The notes below the pieces were generated by a model that was given only the letters and a program-made list of their open reading frames with translations, was not told the origin of the DNA and did no database searches. Below, piece by piece: positions 25,921 to 61,219 of a DNA stretch of 64,000 bases. This stretch comes from Rhizophagus irregularis (taxonomy: Eukaryota; Glomeromycota; Glomeromycetes; Glomerales; Glomeraceae). Numbering within the stretch: the stretch's first letter is position 1; each line of letters starts with the position of its first letter. The position numbers and the translations under genes are program-made. Location of the stretch: contig NC_089435.1 of NCBI RefSeq assembly GCF_026210795.1, positions 1,054,001 through 1,118,000 of the forward strand, in the 5' to 3' direction.

Positions 25921-26600
25921 AAATAAACAAAATAATACTTCTTTCAATTTACCTTGTTAGTATTAAAAGAAAACAAAAAAACTCTCTAAAATCTTGCATA
26001 GAGAAACTAGAAGAAACTATCTAAGAAAAAAAGAACGAAGTTGAGTAATTGTTTATTAATATAAATAAATAAAGGAAAATAATACTTACCAAAATATGAA
26101 AACCAATATGCCCAAAGAGATCCAGAGAGTTGGCTGCAAAAAAAAAATTAGTAAATGTTTCATGAACACCTACTGAATTCCCATACAATCAAATACCTGT
26201 AATCCGTGAAAGGAGAGAAACAAGAAACGTTTTATTAAAAGAATAATTTAAAATAAGACACTAAATATAATGCGAAATTCTACACTTCCTAACCCAAAGA
26301 CCTAAAAACATACCGTCTAAAAAAAAAGAAAGTAATAAATGGTTAGTAAGACTCAAATCTTCGCTTATTTTATCATTTCAGTTCTATATCATCAGCATCT
26401 GTCATTTCTTCATCTTCTTAATAAATATCCATTTTGGTATGACCATTATTTCTAGTGGTAGCCATAACGTCCTCTAGAAATAAAATATTGCTGAATAAAA
26501 TATACATTCAATATATCTTAAAATGGCAAAGCAATAATATTTACCATCTGTTCGGAAGTTCTTTATTTGTTGCTAAAGTACTTGCGGAATAGTTAAATGT
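25920..26600 (-). other. Array of short splice-bounded segments (minus strand)
   Basis: The best-defined exon is 26090-26133 (44 bp), with TTTTTTTGCAG before it and GTAAGT after it. Another short candidate ends at the donor GTAAAT just below 26545. A third begins after the TTTCTAG next to 26475 and has an ATG reading M-A-T-T-R-N-N-G-H-T-K-M-D-I-Y then a stop. The 44-bp exon resembles exons in the arrays at 27.5-28.5 and 58.1-58.9 kb (T-rich, ending ...ATTTTG|GTAAGT). Whether it is coding or non-coding is undecided. Confidence 0.45.
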
Positions 26601-27440: not shown

Positions 27441-27470
27441 ACATTTTTTAAAATTTTTCTCTTTTTGTAG

Positions 27471-28595
27471 AAATTGGCTCCAAAGTAAACATTTCAAGTA
27501 AGTTTTGAGTTTTTTCAAAACTTTCTTTTCGAAACTTAAAAAAAAAAGTTTAATGTTTTCAGTTCAATTTTTTAGGGAAATTGATTCTGATTTGGATACT
27601 GAAATCCTGATAGGTAAGTTTTGAATTTTTTGAAACTTAAGAAAAACTTTTTTTAACGTTTCTTTATTTTTAGAAAATTGGCTCCGAAGTTGGTACTGCA
27701 AAACTTCAAAATGGAAAAACGTTTTTTTTAACGTTTTTCTTTACTTTTTTTTAGGAAAATGACTCCAAAGTTTGGATTCTCAACTTTTAAATTTCAAATT
27801 TTCTTTTTTGAAATTTCAAAAAAAAAGTTCTCTAACTTTTTTTACTCTTTTGTAAGGAAGTTGACTCCAACTCAGATATGACAGAATCGGGTAAGTTTTT
27901 GAAAATAATTTGAAGACTTTGAAAAAATGTTTTTATTACTTTTTTTTTATTTCTTATAAGTCCCGGTTGGCCAGTCATCGAAATTAAAAGAAAGAGTAAG
28001 TTTCGTTGTGAATTTGCTTTTTCTTTTCCTTTATTTCTCTTTTTTTGTAGAGACTTTGGCAGACTTGTTTTTTCTTTTTTTAGACGATCTTCCTCAGTTG
28101 TTGCTAACAAAAAATATCGGATAGCTGAAATTGGGTTCTTCGGATGTGAATATTATTTTTTAAAAAAAATTTTCAATGAATCGTTTATTAAATGTTTCAT
28201 TTTATTTCTTTTTTATAGTTATTTTATATTTTTTTTAGGTGTTCTTTGGTTCATTGGACGTGGGATTTTGGTGAGCAGTATACAAAATTTTCTACAATTA
28301 CCGTATTTTGCGGTATATAAGCACCCCTTTTTTGCACTTGATGCTGGCCAAGATCCTCATAATTTTGGCCAAAATCGCCATAATTCTGGCCAGGGGTGCT
28401 TACTTTCGGGGGGTGCTTACTTACCGCAAAATACGGTACTAATTTTTCTTTTTTTTTAAAAACGGTTTGTTCCTTGGCGTTTTGAACGTGAAATTTTGGT
28501 AAGTAATTTTCTTTTTTTTCTTTATTATTTTACGAGCGTGTTTACTAATATCTCATTATTCTTTTTTTAGATGGCTTAGCATCGGAGGCGATCAG
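27471..28595 (+). other. Microexon array, about 100-bp spacing (plus strand)
   Basis: Pyrimidine-rich tracts ending in AG recur with exon starts at 27471, 27576, 27674, 27755, 27857, 27961, 28051, 28239 and 28571. Clear donors (GTAAGT or GTGAGC) close exons 27471-27497 (27 bp), 27576-27613 (38), 27857-27890 (34), 27961-27995 (35) and 28239-28270 (32). A further exon of the same kind ends at 28498 with no AG before it. The first five exons share GGCTCC/GACTCC text and can be read as I-G-S-K-V, I-D-S-D-L, I-G-S-E-V, N-D-S-K-V and V-D-S-N-S, so they are duplicates of one exon. Some units (27674, 27755) have lost a clear donor. It is either a microexon gene or a decaying exon array; no start or signal peptide is assignable. 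Confidence 0.6.
28301..28436. mobile_element. MITE with TA duplication inside the microexon array
   Basis: Inverted repeats of about 25 bp beginning CCGTATTTTGCGGTA enclose a 136-bp unit. TA occurs on each side (28299-28300 and 28437-28438), as for Tc1/mariner-type MITEs. The inside has TAAGCACCCC and its inverted copies and three TTGGCCA-like blocks. It lies between two exons of the array, in what would be an intron. Confidence 0.85.
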
Positions 28596-28599
28596 AAAT

Positions 28600-29378
28600 G
28601 ATTTGCATATGCGAAGTTTATATTTTTTCAATACCATTTAATGTTTATTATCGATATAACATTTTACATCAATTTACATTTACGATTAGATTTAGAATAG
28701 AACACTCTACTATTAGTTTGTAAGATACTTTACAACTTATTTACAGCTTCAAAAATAAATTTATTATATAACTTTACTATCACTTTAATATTTATTCAAT
28801 ATAAATTGAATGTACATTTACTTTAACTTTATTATCTATTCAACATAAATTATATATATGTTTGCGTTAACTTTAATATCACTTTAATATCTATTTATTA
28901 CAACTTAAATATGCGTTAATTATAACTTTAATTTGTATTTTGTGATTTCAATACTATTTTTGTACGATCCGATTAGATCAGGTGACGATCTCCTTAATAT
29001 GCATCAACTTTATACATACGATTGACTTAAACTTATTGTAACGATGTGAGACCATATCGTGACCAAGCCTTGGTTATAAGGTCTATGATAAAATTTCGAC
29101 TTGGTCACAATATGGTTTCGATTTTAAAAATTTCTGCAATGTCCGGACTCCAGAATTGGCTCTCTCTCTAATCAATTCTATGATCAACAGACCCGAATTT
29201 AGTCGAAATCACAAAGTCGATCATTTTGTCGATCACTCATAATTTTTTTTTTTTTGACGATTTTAAAAGTATAATCAAGAACCGAATTGGAAACCCAAGT
29301 TCGATATTGTGATCTTACATAATTTTGGATTAAATAGACATTTTATGGCTAAAATTAGAAACATTGCACTAAAATTTT
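28600..29378. other. Intergenic region with an inverted repeat
   Basis: ACCATATCGTGACCAAG (from about 29051) and an inverted copy with one mismatch (about 29100-29117) bracket 35 bp, a possible hairpin or MITE remnant. No gene seen. Confidence 0.5.
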
Positions 29379-42519: not shown

Positions 42520-44258
42520 TCAAGGTTTATATAACAATTCCAATATAAAACGAGCAACTTGCATAAGTGCTGCTAAAAGTACTATAGTAAAAAGAAACAT
42601 AATTATAAATAAAAATAACGCTGATATTATAATTGTTGGCAAAAGAAACTTATCAAATAGTATCCATTCAATAAATGGAATTACTCTTTTAAACATTCTC
42701 TTGATGAATCGAAAAACCCTATTAATACTTCGAAAAATTCTATTACTAAGTCTATCATCTATAATTTGAAATACTTCATATTCTTCTATTTCAAAATTTT
42801 CTTTGTTAATAACTTTCTTTTCATAAGAGTGTTGTTTACTTTTACCAACAATATTATCATTTAAAGAATAAATAAACAAATCATGTAATCCAAAACAAGG
42901 TCCTTTGTTTTTGCACCAAGTGATTGCTTCTCTTTTGGATATGACACGACTTAATACAGCAGGAATTGTTCGATTTGTTAATGAAAATATAAAACTATCT
43001 GATGATTCATGTTGATGATTATTGTAAACATCATCATGATAATATAATAAAGAACTTCTTTCATTTTCCAATATTTTATAACTACGCCATTCTAATGGAT
43101 TATATCCACCAATTATTTCACCTGAATCATAAACTTTAATGACAACAACTGTTGGTCCCTTGTTATCACAATTATCATGAAATTTCTTGATTTCAAAATC
43201 TTCTTGACTTGCACGATAAATAAGTTTAAATTTAAAAGGTATATTTTTGAAAATATAAGGTGCTCCACGTTTTTTATCAATCCAACTTGCTATCAATGCT
43301 GCATCTTTAGAATTAATAATTTTCGAGTCAAAAATAAATCTCGAGGGTAAAACATTGAATGTAGTTTTGAAATTAGGATTTGATAAACATTGAAGAACTT
43401 CTCCATCAAGACCATCTGGTAAGATATCCTTAAATTGAGTCCTAATTTTCATATAATCATTGAATGACATTTGAAAGAATCGAATGTGAGGAATACAATC
43501 ATGAATCGTTTTTTCTAGATTTATGAAATCCGTTGACTTCCATTTAGTTATATCACCATCTAAAATAGAATTAGTATTTTTAATTCCCCATTTAATTAAA
43601 TATTCCCAAATTTCAATCTCTTCTAATTCAAGATTATCACATTTTAAAAGTTGTATAAGGAAAGTTTTTTCTATTTTTAAGTATTCCTCCGATTCAAAAA
43701 TAATTTTAGGATTACTACAAACTAATTCTAATGCAAAATTATATAAATTAATGAAATGATCATGTTGATAAACTTTGATAATATCTTTTGGTTGCCAAGC
43801 CGATTTATTTTCAGTCAAAATTTCTTCAAGTTGTTGAAATAGTTTAATTAATTGAAGCTCATCTGCTGCAATAACAATATCAACAAGGCTAACTTCATTA
43901 TTATCTTTAATATAAAGTAATCCTGTATAAATATACCTATCCATGATATTATTTTTGTAAATGATTAATAATTTTTATTTAAAAAAATGATTAAAGTTGA
44001 ATTTAGTACCTACTTTATAATAACCTCAAACACCAACGGTGAAATGTTAGGTTTGCTAAAAACAACGATTCCATCATCTTCTTTACTTGTCCATCGTGTA
44101 GATAATCCATTTTTAAAATAGATTGACCTAGAAGATAAAATTAACGAATGTGCTCTAAATTCCTTAGTATTTTCTTCTTTACCAACTATAATTTTTACAT
44201 CATAATCGTCAGGATTTTCAAGTAAATTTGAAAAATCTATAGGTAATGTACGATTCAT
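42520..44258 (-). CDS. BTB-BACK-TLDc protein with hydrophobic C-terminal tail
   Basis: Two exons, 44014-44258 and 42520-43936, with a 77-bp intron (GTAGGT...GATAG). They give 553 codons plus stop in frame. The ATG at 43944 that opens the longest frame lies inside the intron, and splicing restores I-I-K|Y-I-Y-T-G-L-L, the usual end of a BTB alpha/beta core. Order: BTB (about 1-115, with D-D-Y-D-V-K-I-I-V and A-H-S-L-I-L-S-S-R-S), BACK (about 130-235, I-W-E-Y-L-I-K-W-G), then TLDc (about 282-474, W-I-D-K-K, CDNKGP, IGGYNPLEW, F-G-L-H-D-L-F-I, E-E-Y-E-V-F-Q-I). A basic stretch (R-F-I-K-R-M-F-K-R) and about 38 hydrophobic residues end the protein. BTB-BACK proteins normally link substrates to Cullin-3. 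The tail suggests anchoring in a membrane, which I infer only from hydrophobicity. Confidence 0.9.
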
Positions 44259-56735: not shown

Positions 56736-57381
56736 AAAAGAATTAAATGAATTAAACTCATTGGTCGCAGTAAACAAGCTACTATAGCCCAAACAGAACT
56801 AAAGGGAGAGAAGGTAGAAGATTTTGTTCGTATTGCTGATCGATCCTTATATAATTCATAATTTTTTTTGTATTTTTTTTTTCGTTTATAAAAATATTAC
56901 TAATACACTGTTATTTTTTAGTTAGATTGGATTTGAAAAAACAATATTTGACTATAGAACTGAGAGAAACATGTTGGAGCTCATGGTAATGTTGAGAAGT
57001 TTACCATTCCAATTCTTTAATGTCTCAGTTTTCGAAGGTATACTTTCACTTACTATTCTTTTAAGCTTTTTTATATAGTGAAACATTACTAACATTTCTG
57101 TTTATTTTTTTAGGAAATGGTCTGGTCTTTAGAGGTAACCTGAAATGTGAATGGACTCTTAGTAATGTTCAACACATTTAATTTTATTACAATAGCTTGT
57201 AATCAAAATATCAAAATTAATAAGATACTAGGTTAATAATCTATTAAATATAAATTAAGAAGCATTGTCTTATTGTTTCAACTTTCAAGTACATCATTTA
57301 AATTGATTCTTATAGACTATTAATAGAATTAAATAAACCAGCTTATCCTTTATTAATTTCTGGATTTTATATTATCAGTTA

Positions 57382-59387
57382 CTAGCTGGATGCCCGCGTT
57401 TCACGCGGGCCTGGCTAATTAAAATTATGAAAATCAGATACCTTTCTGCTAAGCTGTTATATAAAGTCTAGAATGGTTATTAGCATTAATTTAGAATTTT
57501 GTGGTAAATAGGGAATCATAGGCTGTGTATGGCAAGGGATTTTTATAGGTGCCGTCGGAATTGCCGAATTGAATTTACGGCGTTACGAAATATGGATTTT
57601 ACCATTTAAATATCTAACAAATCATCAAGATCAGCATTATAGATTTACGGATTACAAATTATCTTCGGCATAATAAAAAAAAAATATTTTACTTTCTTTG
57701 TGTAATTTTTGTATATTTAGCATTAAATAATTACGGCATTACGACGATTTAATATATTACGGTATAAACTTCATATGCCGTAGTGATTTTACAGCACTCA
57801 CAATCCTTGCGAAATATTTTAAAAGTTATTACATATTAATAGGAATATTAATCATTACAAAGTATAACAGATAATGAGTGTCAGTATAAATAATATGCAA
57901 TACATTTTTTATTATAATAGTTATTATAATAGTCATAGTGGTTCATTAGGAAGCCGGGCAAACCTAAAAAACATCCAAAGAATCATTAGACCTAAAAAAA
58001 GGTACCAAAATTTAAAAAAAGAAAAGAAAAAATGATTAGTAATTATGAAAAAGAATTTTTTAAAAAAAATTAAAAATATAATTCAAACTAACCTTCACTC
58101 TGAAAGGTACCACCAAAACCTAAAAAAGAGAAAAGGGTGTTCCCTACAAAAAAAAAGTTAAATTAGTGACATTTTTTAAAGTTTAAAATTCATTTTCAGA
58201 ACTTACCCAAAGTTCTCAAAAATTGATCATCTACTAAAAAAAGAAAAGAATGAATCATCAATAATGTATCGTTAAAGAAATAATGTTAGGAAAATATTAT
58301 TTACCAAAATTTACATCTGTCCAAGGTGTTGCAGTACTGTCTAAACTACAAAATATAGAACACAAAATGTTAGTTTTAATGTTTCATTTCATTAAGAAAT
58401 AAAAAAAATTAATGAAAAACACTTACAAATTCCATGTCTGGAAAGAGCCAAAGAACCACCCTACAGAATGCAAAAATAAACATTAGTAAACATTTTGTTA
58501 ACTAACATTATGTTAAAAGAAGCATTTTAAAAGAACCTACTAAAATTTCACACGTCCAGAATCATGAACAAACCATATAAAAAAGGAAGCAACATGATGT
58601 TAGTAAATGTTTTGTTAAAAAATTTTTCAAAGAAAAAATACTCACCACAATTCTGTTCGTGTATAAATTATTCCTTATTCAGTTATCTAAAAAAATGAAA
58701 AATCAAACTGTTAGAAATGTTTGATTAAAAGAAATGTATTAAATCCTTCCTTACCAAATTTCCACGCGTCTGAAGACAAACCAAGAAAACCACTGATACC
58801 TAAAAAAAGAAAGCTTTATTTTTTTGGTTTTTTTTTGGTTTATTGCATAGTTATTAAATACCTGTAATTGCTGTTATTAGAAATGTTCAATCCCCCTGGT
58901 AAAATCCTACTTTGAGAGCTGTGCTGGCATTAGAAATTAAAAATTAAATGTAAAAGAAAAGGTGTATTTTTTTTTAAAAGAAAGGGATTTTTTTTCGTCA
59001 TATGGGAAAATTCAGAAACTGAAAAATATATTTTTTTTTTAAAAAAAAAAGAAAATGCGTCGTATGGGAAAATCCAAAAAACTTTTTTTTAAAAAAAACA
59101 ATGACGATTGCTCAATAAATTTTTTATATTTTATATTACAATTAGTACTAATTGGATTAGTTGCTATAATTTGTTTTTACGCCAATCATTTATGCAGCCT
59201 AATTCAAAATTGTATTGGGATTAGAGCTGCTAATCAATGTCAAATGATGCGCCACTCCGAATCTATATAAAAATCTGTAGCACAGGGCGCAGACACATGA
59301 TAATGGACGATCCAATTTAAATCCACCTTTTTATGCAGGGTAGTCTTAACGTCACGGTCGCACAATGCTTTTTTTTATAGATAGAGA
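57382..59387 (-). mobile_element. Non-autonomous Helitron carrying a microexon array
   Basis: On the minus strand it begins A|TCTCTATCTATAAAA (59387) and ends CTAG|T (57382). Ten bases before the end is a 7-bp GC hairpin, GCCCGCG-TTTCA-CGCGGGC (57392-57410). A 5' TC, a 3' CTAG, a hairpin about 10 bases inside and insertion between A and T without duplication are the Helitron signature. No Rep-helicase is encoded. The body carries the exon array at 58.1-58.9 kb. It lies 32 bp 3' of the 59.4-61.2 kb BTB-BACK-TLDc gene. Confidence 0.82.
58093..58906 (-). other. Eight-unit microexon array, 113-bp period
   Basis: Splice-bounded segments in transcription order: 58862-58906 (45 bp), 58755-58799 (45), 58646-58686 (41), about 58542-58573, 58427-58460 (34), 58305-58345 (41), 58207-58233 (27) and 58093-58119 (27). 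Acceptor-to-acceptor distances are 107, 113, 113, 113, 115, 112 and 114 bp. Each has a T-rich tract with AG before it and GT(A/G)AG-like or similar bases after it, except unit 4, whose acceptor is ATG. Exons 4 and 5 resemble those at 28465-28498 and 28239-28270. Joining exons 1 and 2 gives an open frame in only one phase, and that phase meets TGA at the exon 2-3 junction. A conventional protein is therefore doubtful. Confidence 0.65.
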
Positions 59388-59419
59388 TTATGAATAGCTT
59401 CTAATAATTTTTTGTTTAT

Positions 59420-61219
59420 TTATTCAATATAAACTTGACGACGTTTCAAAAAATATTTTAATAGTAACAATACCAAAATAACACCAATAACACCAAAAAT
59501 ATTACCTTGTTGATAAAAGTTGTAAATTATTGATGCAAAATAAAAAACAAAAGATATAACAGACGACAATACTAACATAAAAAATATTACTGGCAGAAGA
59601 ATAACAAATTTCCCAAGCATCCATTTAATAAATCGAATTACTCTCTTAAACATTCTATTGATAAATCGAAAAATTATATCAATAAATAGAAAAATGATGG
59701 ATTTATATCTATCATCAACAATTTGAAATACTTCATATTCTTCTATTTCAAAAGCTTCTTTGTTAATAACTTTCTTTTCATAAGAATGCTGCTTGCTTTT
59801 TCCGGCAATATTATTATTTAAAGAATAAACAAACAAATCATGTAATCCAAAACAAGGTCCTTTGTTTTTGCACCAAGTGATTGCTTCTCTTTTAGATGTG
59901 ACACGACTTAATACAGGTACTGTTCGGTTGGTTAATGAAAATATAAAACTATTTGATGATTTACGTTGATGGTTATTGTAAAAATCACAATTATGATATA
60001 ATATGGGACTCCTTTCATCTTCTAATATTTTAAAACTACGCCATTCCAATGGATTATATCCACCAATTATTTCACCTGAATCGTGAACTTTAATGACAAC
60101 AACTGTTGGTCCTTTATTATCACAATTCTCATGAAATTTCTTGATTTTAAAGTCTTCTTGACTTGCACGATAAATAAGTTCAAGTTTAAAAGGTATATTT
60201 TTAAAATTGTAAGATGCTCCACGTTTTTTATCAATCCAACTTGCTATCAATGCTGCATCTTTAGAATTAATAATTTTCGAGTCAAATAGAAATCTTGAGG
60301 GTAAAACATTGAATGTAGTTTTGAAATTAGAGTTTGATAAATATTGAAGAACTTCTCCATCAAGACCATCCGGTAAGATATCCTTAAATTGAGTCCTAAC
60401 TTTTGTATAATCATTGAATGACATTTGAAAGAATCGAATGTGAGGAATACAATTATGAATTATTTTTTCTAGATTTATAAAATCTATTGGTGTCCATTTA
60501 GTTATATCACCATCTAAAATAGAATTGGTATTTTCAATTCCCCATTTAATTAAATATTCCCAAATTTCAATCTCTTCTAATTCAAAATCATCACATTTTA
60601 AAAGTTGTATAAAGAAAGATTCTTCAATTTTTAAGTATTCCTCCGATTCAAAAATAATTTTAGGTTTACTACAAACTAATTCTAATACAAAATTATATAA
60701 ATTAATGAAATGACTATGTTGACTAACTTTGACAATATCTTTTGGTTGCCAGGCAGACCTATTTCCAGTTAAAGTTTCCTCAAGTTGTTGAAATACTTCA
60801 ATTAATTGAAGCTCATCCGCTGCGATAGCAACATCAATAAGATTAATTTCATTATTATCTTTAATATAAAGTAATCCTGTATAAATATACCTATTCGTGA
60901 TATTATTTTTGTAAATGATTAATGATTTTATTTTTTTTAAAAAAAATAATAATTAAATTGGAAAAAAATGTATTTACTTTATAATAACCTCAAACACCAA
61001 AGGTGAAATATTAGGTTTATTAAAAATGATGATTCCATCTTCTTTTCTTGCCCATCGTGCAGATAATCCATTTTTAAAATAGATTGACCTAGAAGATAAA
61101 ATTAACGAATGTGCTTTAAATTCCTTAATATTTTCTTCTTTACCAACTATAATTTTCACATCATAATCGTCAGGATTTTCAAGTAAATTTGAAAAATCTA
61201 TGGGCAATGTACAGTTCAT
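59420..61219 (-). CDS. BTB-BACK-TLDc protein with hydrophobic C-terminal tail, paralog 2
   Basis: Exons 60978-61219 and 59420-60890, with an 87-bp intron (GTAAAT...GAATAG). They give 570 codons plus stop. I start at ATG 61219 (M-N-C-T-L-P-I-D-F-S), which matches the start of the 44258 gene; the longer frame begins with TTG. The whole of exon 2 is open from the acceptor, although its first ATG is only at 60424. The domains are as in the first copy: BTB, BACK (I-W-E-Y-L-I-K-W-G-I), and TLDc (F-D-S-K-I-I-N-S-K-D-A-A, CDNKGPTVVVIK, IGGYNPLEW). The tail is longer and has two hydrophobic runs (F-V-I-L-L-P-V-I-F-F-M-L-V-L and F-G-V-I-G-V-I-L-V-L-L-L-L) separated by a short loop, then K-R-R-Q. The proteins are highly similar up to the tail, where they diverge. 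Confidence 0.9.

Follow-up and report, generated by a model that had tools for sequence, protein, structure and literature searches.

A class of tandem exon/intron-like units in the genome of Rhizophagus irregularis and its association with a non-autonomous Helitron

Features of the locus

The window, i.e. the whole 64,000-nucleotide stretch of the genome of the root-symbiotic fungus Rhizophagus irregularis analysed here (contig NC_089435.1, positions 1,054,001 to 1,118,000), has a G+C content of 26% and contains a non-autonomous Helitron, inside which we identified seven tandem exon-like units on the minus strand (Table 1). The terms "exon" and "intron" are used throughout as labels derived from sequence signals. 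Successive exon starts are 113, 110, 116, 115, 112 and 114 bp apart, and the introns are 68–87 nt long. The initial annotation had described eight units at a strict 113-bp pitch; the regular row is real, but it consists of seven clear units whose pitch varies between 110 and 116 bp, and the candidate eighth unit is weak: on the upstream side there is only a donor-like GTAGG (58910), and on the downstream side only a worn remnant around 57991. The proposed placement of donors 27–45 bp past the acceptors fits the exon lengths of all seven units. All seven have a GT donor and six have a TAG acceptor, the exception being unit 3 with TAT, while a CTAAC or CTAAT word is found in each of the six introns between the units; unit 7 also has a second possible acceptor in a TAG that comes earlier, at 58144. 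The signals of spliceosomal introns (GT donor, branch point, T-rich tract and AG acceptor) are present in order, and splicing of the units is likely where these signals are intact. In a transcript of the minus strand, all the signals for removal would still be present in several introns of the array, and the product would be non-coding.

The neighbouring open reading frame on the minus strand (59420–60424, 334 aa) encodes a TLDc-domain protein and ends 31 bp from the Helitron. A longer ORF similar to it is located at 42520–43944, also on the minus strand.

The array was compared with shuffled sequence in two ways. A strict rule-based chain finder joined four consecutive introns on the sense strand of the array and none on the opposite strand, the maximum in 300 dinucleotide shuffles being two; among the 124 block-strands of the window, four-intron chains were found only in the two blocks that hold the Helitron array. 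When the units were aligned with one another, the mean score was 15.7, compared with 5.2 ± 1.2 for 200 sets of shuffled units and 6.9 ± 1.1 for separate shuffling of exon and intron. This likeness is clearer in the introns (0 of 200 shuffles scored as high) than in the exons (2 of 200, or 7 of 500 after trimming of the exon ends). The units are homologous to one another, as expected from the tandem amplification of an exon-plus-intron unit that had been proposed for this locus. Owing to their strong divergence, the array is absent from the Tandem Repeats Finder listing of the window.

Table 1. Coordinates of the Helitron, its array and the other arrays in the window
Feature	Position	Strand	Basis or remarks
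Non-autonomous Helitron, 2.0 kb	57381..59389 (including one flanking base per end)	-	Homology limits of dispersed copies; unrelated flanks
Helitron 3' terminus	57382..57411	-	Stem-loop GCCCGCG-TGAAA-CGCGGGC, then ATCCAGCTAG
Cargo holding the exon/intron array, absent from sister elements	57943..58909	-	Comparison with L046, L047 and L050
Unit 1 exon, 45 nt	58755..58799	-	TAG acceptor, GTAAG donor
Unit 2 exon, 41 nt	58646..58686	-	TAG acceptor, GTGAG donor; majority sequence has stops in 3 of 3 frames
Unit 3 exon, 36 nt	58541..58576	-	Acceptor lost (TAT in 18 of 18 copies), GTAGG donor
Unit 4 exon, 34 nt	58427..58460	-	TAG acceptor, GTAAG donor
Unit 5 exon, 41 nt	58305..58345	-	TAG acceptor, GTAAA donor
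Unit 6 exon, 27 nt	58207..58233	-	TAG acceptor, GTAAG donor
Unit 7 exon, 27 nt	58093..58119	-	TAG acceptor, GTTAG donor
Second exon/intron array	27460..28600	+	Unit matches in the window; an insertion around 28300-28435 breaks the row
Third, short array	25980..26350	-	Chain finder and unit matches in the window

The Helitron, its copies and its sister elements

Helitrons have 5' TC and 3' CTRR ends, carry a short hairpin just before the 3' end and insert between A and T without duplication of the target. The element in the window starts at 59388 with TCTCTATC and ends at 57382, where the hairpin is followed by CTAG (CTGG in the copy L007). In minus sense, the sequence between the flanking A and T begins with TCTCTATCTATAAAA and closes with GCCCGCG-loop-CGCGGGC-ATCCAGCTAG; the hairpin stem is deleted in L013 and worn in some other copies. 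An A precedes TC and a T follows CTAG in the window copy and at most of the recovered ends, and the flanks are unrelated among copies. The array is oriented along the Helitron's own sense strand. No ORF of at least 150 aa was found inside the element; a Rep/helicase protein is not expected in a 2-kb non-autonomous Helitron.

A search of the genome (146,748,485 bases in 32 contigs) with positions 58000–58950 of the window returned 42 matches, 18 of them long including the window itself, so that the Helitron with its array is present in 17 further long copies at other places of the genome (L001–L017). In the window copy and in 15 of the 17 loci, the alignment covers the 3' end from the very first base (L011 does not align there and L012 is worn). 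Fifteen of the 17 loci, all except L001 and L011, extend to the 5' end, albeit in worn form in L009 and L014. The ends and the dispersed copies with their unrelated flanks confirm the Helitron that had been named as the carrier, and its long copies carry the array as well.

Searching the genome with the 3' end alone produced 23 matches, of which 16 belong to array copies already collected and six of the other seven were examined (the one left out, C8:4656294, is about 8 kb from the array copy L011). Three of these elements (L046, L047 and L050) share with the window Helitron positions 1 to 273–478 and pieces from position 1447 on, but have a different interior, with only short low-scoring matches to the part in between. 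A fourth, L048, has the 3' end and interior of these sister Helitrons, and the four are 75–95% alike across the shared parts. None of the four contains an array unit as judged by the unit model (E ≤ 0.1). Because the sisters have the same ends, another interior and no array, the array must be regarded as cargo of the Helitron, as had been suggested. The proposed check of other Helitrons with the same 3' end also led to L049, a partial Helitron copy in which a separate insertion carries its own array on the opposite strand. The remaining match, L045, has 3' parts only and no unit. In L046, the interior (about 790–2990 on the reverse strand) has short open frames of up to 119 codons.

No close donor locus for the Helitron array was found in the genome search. 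Outside the long copies, the best long match is 82% identical over 167 bases, and matches of higher identity are only 39–92 bases long. Assignment to the gene fragments captured by Helitrons, which have an identifiable donor gene with coding exons, is not supported: the genome search yielded no close donor and the exons are not frame-preserving. Just outside the 3' end of the Helitron, on the opposite strand, there is a single unit-like match (57077–57132, plus strand, E 7e-8).

Related units elsewhere in the genome

The shorter matches of the genome search, many of them 68–82% identical, led to other arrays. The consensus of the unit profile is TTTAACGAAACGTTTACTAACGTTTC, a T-tract, TAG, the exon and GTAAG. 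The pattern ACTAACGTTTC-N6-36-TTTAG has 286 matches in the genome, compared with four for the reversed control. With GTAAG required 25–45 nt downstream, 85 rows were obtained, against seven for the scrambled (reversed) word GAATG and none for the reversed-pattern controls; these 85 rows are not independent events, because a few acceptors are counted twice and many rows represent neighbouring units or repeat copies. At the similarity cut chosen for grouping, 81 rows formed 15 exon groups, eight of which are single units. Neighbouring units are spaced at 108–130 bp (108–113 or 120–130) or about multiples thereof in 36 cases. The splice signals are common to all 15 groups although the exon sequences differ, which fits the idea that splicing is kept rather than coding.

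Several arrays appear young, among them those at C9:4281800-4282400, C32:1741390-1741810, C11:3266700-3267800 and C1:4055500-4056400. Between-unit identity reaches 91% at a spacing of 112 bp in L032, 90% at 127 bp in L033 and 86% at 124 bp in L036, and is 72% at 107 bp in L034. Among four 10-kb pieces chosen at round coordinates, two contain an array (L051, best E 4e-5; L052, best E 2e-9), and none was found in the other two (L053 and L054). Beside a chaperonin gene, at one of six such loci, the unit model also returned a weak match (L044, E 0.003). Within the window itself, the second array comprises another exon group followed by Helitron-like units, and the insertion that breaks it is palindromic.

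Some of these arrays lie in transposons of other kinds. L032 and L052 have in common an array and its flank up to the end GCAACCTTA, beyond which they differ; both ends are seen in L032 (TAAGGTTGC...GCAACCTTA) and one in L052, and the L032 flanks GGTACATC and GATACATC differ at one base. The hAT elements are marked by terminal inverted repeats and an 8-bp target duplication, and, on account of its ends and flanks, the element in L032 and L052 is a candidate hAT-like one. Another element is represented by L026, which has exact inverted repeats of 25 bp around CTTTACAGAAACCTTCAATTTT as its ends, and by the copies L025 and L027, of which one end each is seen; the left flanks differ between L025 and L026 and the right flanks between L026 and L027. 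Judging from these termini, the arrays occur in at least three element types, namely the Helitron and two with terminal inverted repeats (few copies). A crude motif scan of 20 loci detected no Helitron ends around other arrays, and a scan of 22 stretches for inverted ends was convincing in a single case, L026; in L032 it picked up inner inverted repeats, and in L019, L020 and L034 short, ambiguous matches. In these two scans, no carrier was found for most of the arrays examined.

The branch-point hairpin

In five of the six folded array introns, the branch point is located in or beside the loop of a hairpin. One of the six has a whole-intron folding energy clearly lower than that of its shuffled versions (z -6.9); for the rest, z lies between 0.3 and -2.3. 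The left arm GAAACGT in front of the branch-point pattern has 142 matches in the genome and none in the reversed control. Across 51 aligned units, the nine pairs of the hairpin are standard in 72% of cells, compared with 68% after shuffling and 37–45% after sliding. Two-sided changes number 38 versus 23.6 in shuffles (one of 500 as high), and the covariation score, in which kinship is ignored, is 0.198 versus 0.137 in shuffles (0 of 500 as high) and 0.03–0.10 when slid. Two of the five covariation measures are at shuffle level, namely the pairs with two-sided changes (6 vs 5.7) and further pair types (15 vs 14.9). The outermost pair is seen as CG, UA, UG, GC and AU; pair 16–25 is unpaired in 26 of 49 cells, and the C-G to U-A change at pair 14–27 may be due to CpG decay alone. 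No such hairpin was detected in the host introns of chaperonin genes (seven rough calls, at least two of them doubtful).

Coding potential

If the units were coding, exon lengths should favour multiples of three, and they do not. Remainders of 0, 1 and 2 are found in 4, 6 and 5 of the modal lengths of the 15 exon groups, in 30, 22 and 29 of the 81 single units, and in 14, 9 and 14 of the 37 units of seven arrays. The idea of "ready-made exon cassettes", taken in the coding sense, is not supported, given this lack of a bias and the stops in the majority sequence of exon 2. A coding repeat protein was likewise rejected on the basis of exon lengths and stops, and the passages of PMC11333574 on the SP7-like effectors of Rhizophagus give no support for an origin from their exons.

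A less direct form of the coding explanation is that the arrays are decayed fragments of an ordinary coding family with many tiny exons, for example a secreted repeat protein, captured by the Helitron. Young arrays do have exons of 39 or 42 nt (39 nt in five of six units of L032, 42 nt in three of four units of L036), several of which are, by eye, open in one frame; the order of exon classes, also by eye, is kept in related arrays (L033 and L037, L029 and L036), and a deletion in exon 2 of the Helitron copies L009 and L010 takes out its stop-rich part. Against this, the length counts are unbiased at all three levels, the majority exon 2 is closed in all frames, and tandem exons of 44, 38, 37 and 32 nt would shift the frame with each copy, which argues against a coding family. 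We consider this origin unlikely.

Wear and possible constraint among the Helitron copies

Ungapped reading by hand of the 18 copies revealed changes at 7 of 232 splice sites. Two of 107 acceptors over six units are lost (unit 2 in L016 and unit 5 in L013) and five of 125 donors are changed, two of them to GC (unit 2 in L011, unit 4 in L014 and L015, unit 6 in L013 and unit 7 in L015); the deleted unit 7 of L017 is left out of these counts. The AG and GT positions are mostly conserved in the other copies. The acceptor position of unit 3 reads TAT in every copy, with a CAG four bases further on in L014–L017. The broader claim that splicing rather than coding is kept draws a hint from the 7 of 232 and is weakened by this one acceptor, lost throughout.

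The initial annotation also stated that the exons diverge more than the splice signals, which is true of the raw counts. Subgroups A and C differ at 27 of 237 exon columns, 21 of 374 intron columns and 1 of 53 splice-site columns; with A and B pooled, the differing subgroup-consensus columns are 27 of 237, 22 of 402 (exon vs intron, p 0.009) and 1 of 53, and the single splice-site difference is probably an artefact of gap placement. However, the apparently faster divergence of the exons results from their higher G+C content, and the exon/intron part of the contrast is gone at non-CpG G/C sites (23 of 90 exon vs 18 of 81 intron sites between subgroup consensuses, p 0.72). At G/C columns of the splice sites, 0 of 19 differ between subgroups versus 41 of 171 in the rest of the array (p 0.015); part of this deficit follows from the selection of sites that are intact in the window. 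Within subgroups, 3 of 218 splice G's are changed (hand count), compared with 43 of 1408 non-CpG G/C cells in exons (p 0.19) and 56 of 1364 in introns (p 0.05). Drift in the array resembles that in the remainder of the Helitron, with a hint of at most weak constraint on the splice sites.

Origin and significance of the arrays

We favour, with a probability of roughly two in three, the interpretation that the units form a genome-wide class of non-coding exon-intron satellites that grow by tandem duplication of the whole unit and have partly spread as transposon cargo. The Helitron array would be a worn stretch of this class, whose unit spans about 110–130 bp and consists of a donor, an ACTAAC branch point in a small hairpin, a T-rich tract, TAG and a short exon (27–45 nt in the arrays read). 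New units would arise through local tandem duplication of exon and intron together, as the near-identical neighbouring units suggest. A non-autonomous Helitron would then have acquired one array as cargo, and its ends and flanks point to transposition as the probable means by which it came to be at 17 other places.

The splice-like signals might instead be kept because they function, in that introns help transposons or their insertions to be tolerated, either by being spliced out or by serving as a mark of "self" against RNA silencing; unrelated transposons would then acquire them again and again. The presence of arrays in at least three element types, the 85 correctly placed donors against seven for the scrambled word at the same distance, the covariation of the hairpin above all 500 shuffles and the few splice sites changed among the Helitron copies all speak for such a function. 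On the other hand, the deficit at splice sites is weak when G/C content and the way in which the sites were chosen are taken into account, the original acceptor position of unit 3 is without an acceptor in all 18 copies, and most of the arrays examined have no detected carrier; moreover, the arrays are so common that chance capture by transposons suffices. This explanation is unlikely. Its stronger version, in which unrelated non-autonomous DNA transposons (a Helitron and at least two elements with terminal inverted repeats) have repeatedly taken up units with a structured branch point as functional cargo, and selection acts on their splicing instead of on coding, we also regard as unlikely; if true, rows of efficient introns would let element transcripts or insertions pass as host RNA, spliced or escaping small-RNA silencing. 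It is also conceivable that the satellite was shaped by features of the DNA itself, such as palindromes that promote duplication, and that its intron-like words are there by chance or common descent. The folded array introns do hold one or two inverted repeats, and the words are common by descent within exon groups, but the donor, branch point, T-tract and acceptor are rightly ordered and spaced on one strand in 15 exon groups and the scrambled donor is 12 times rarer, which makes an origin of this kind very unlikely.

A satellite of whole exon-intron units that duplicates in many groups and resides in several kinds of transposons would be a ready source of new splice sites, introns and spliced non-coding RNA across a genome. 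It also allows two questions to be tested in one organism, namely how introns multiply and whether transposons benefit from spliceable sequence; Nanopore RNA reads of this species are described in PMC10234402. PMC11075540 puts the unclassified share of R. irregularis transposable elements at two thirds, and the arrays may be part of this fraction. That the same kind of repeat is found genome-wide and within at least two other transposon types is unusual, and we found no description of such arrays in the openly accessible journal papers searched, as judged by titles, the opening parts of abstracts and some passages.

Comparison with known systems

The Helitron resembles the gene-fragment Helitrons of maize and bat in its ends, its A/T target and a foreign interior that differs between sisters, and PMC4528327 and PMC3288121 report spliced transcripts of maize Helitrons with captured exons. 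In contrast to those elements, its cargo is a frameless tandem array of exons and introns with no recognisable fragment of a host gene. The DINE Helitrons of Drosophila are likewise transposons with internal tandem repeats, able, according to PMC9659126, to seed satellites, whereas in the repeat unit described here a donor, a branch point and an acceptor are spaced as in introns, and this kind of unit is found in three element types. Fungal introner-like elements and stwintrons, as portrayed in PMC8469720 and PMC4457414, are short related introns with inverted-repeat structure that have multiplied in one genome. They are integrated singly in genes, while the present rows arise from joint duplication of an exon with its intron. 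Introner-like elements being near-identical introns inserted one by one into unrelated genes, assignment of the units to them was rejected for this reason. The SP7-like effectors are repeat-rich genes of the same fungus, but the relevant passages of PMC11333574 describe a conserved intron before the first repeat and mention no arrangement of one intron per repeat.

Inverted repeats are also seen at other positions of the arrays. In L033 (2428–3368), a second inverted repeat, GAATTTCGAAG-GTACCT-CTTCGAAATTC, spans the exon/intron border and carries the donor in its loop, and an intron of L035 has a 13-bp stem just after the donor. L033 and L029 contain similar stretches with words like TACACATATC and GGGTAC beside or inside their arrays, which perhaps represent one inserted element.
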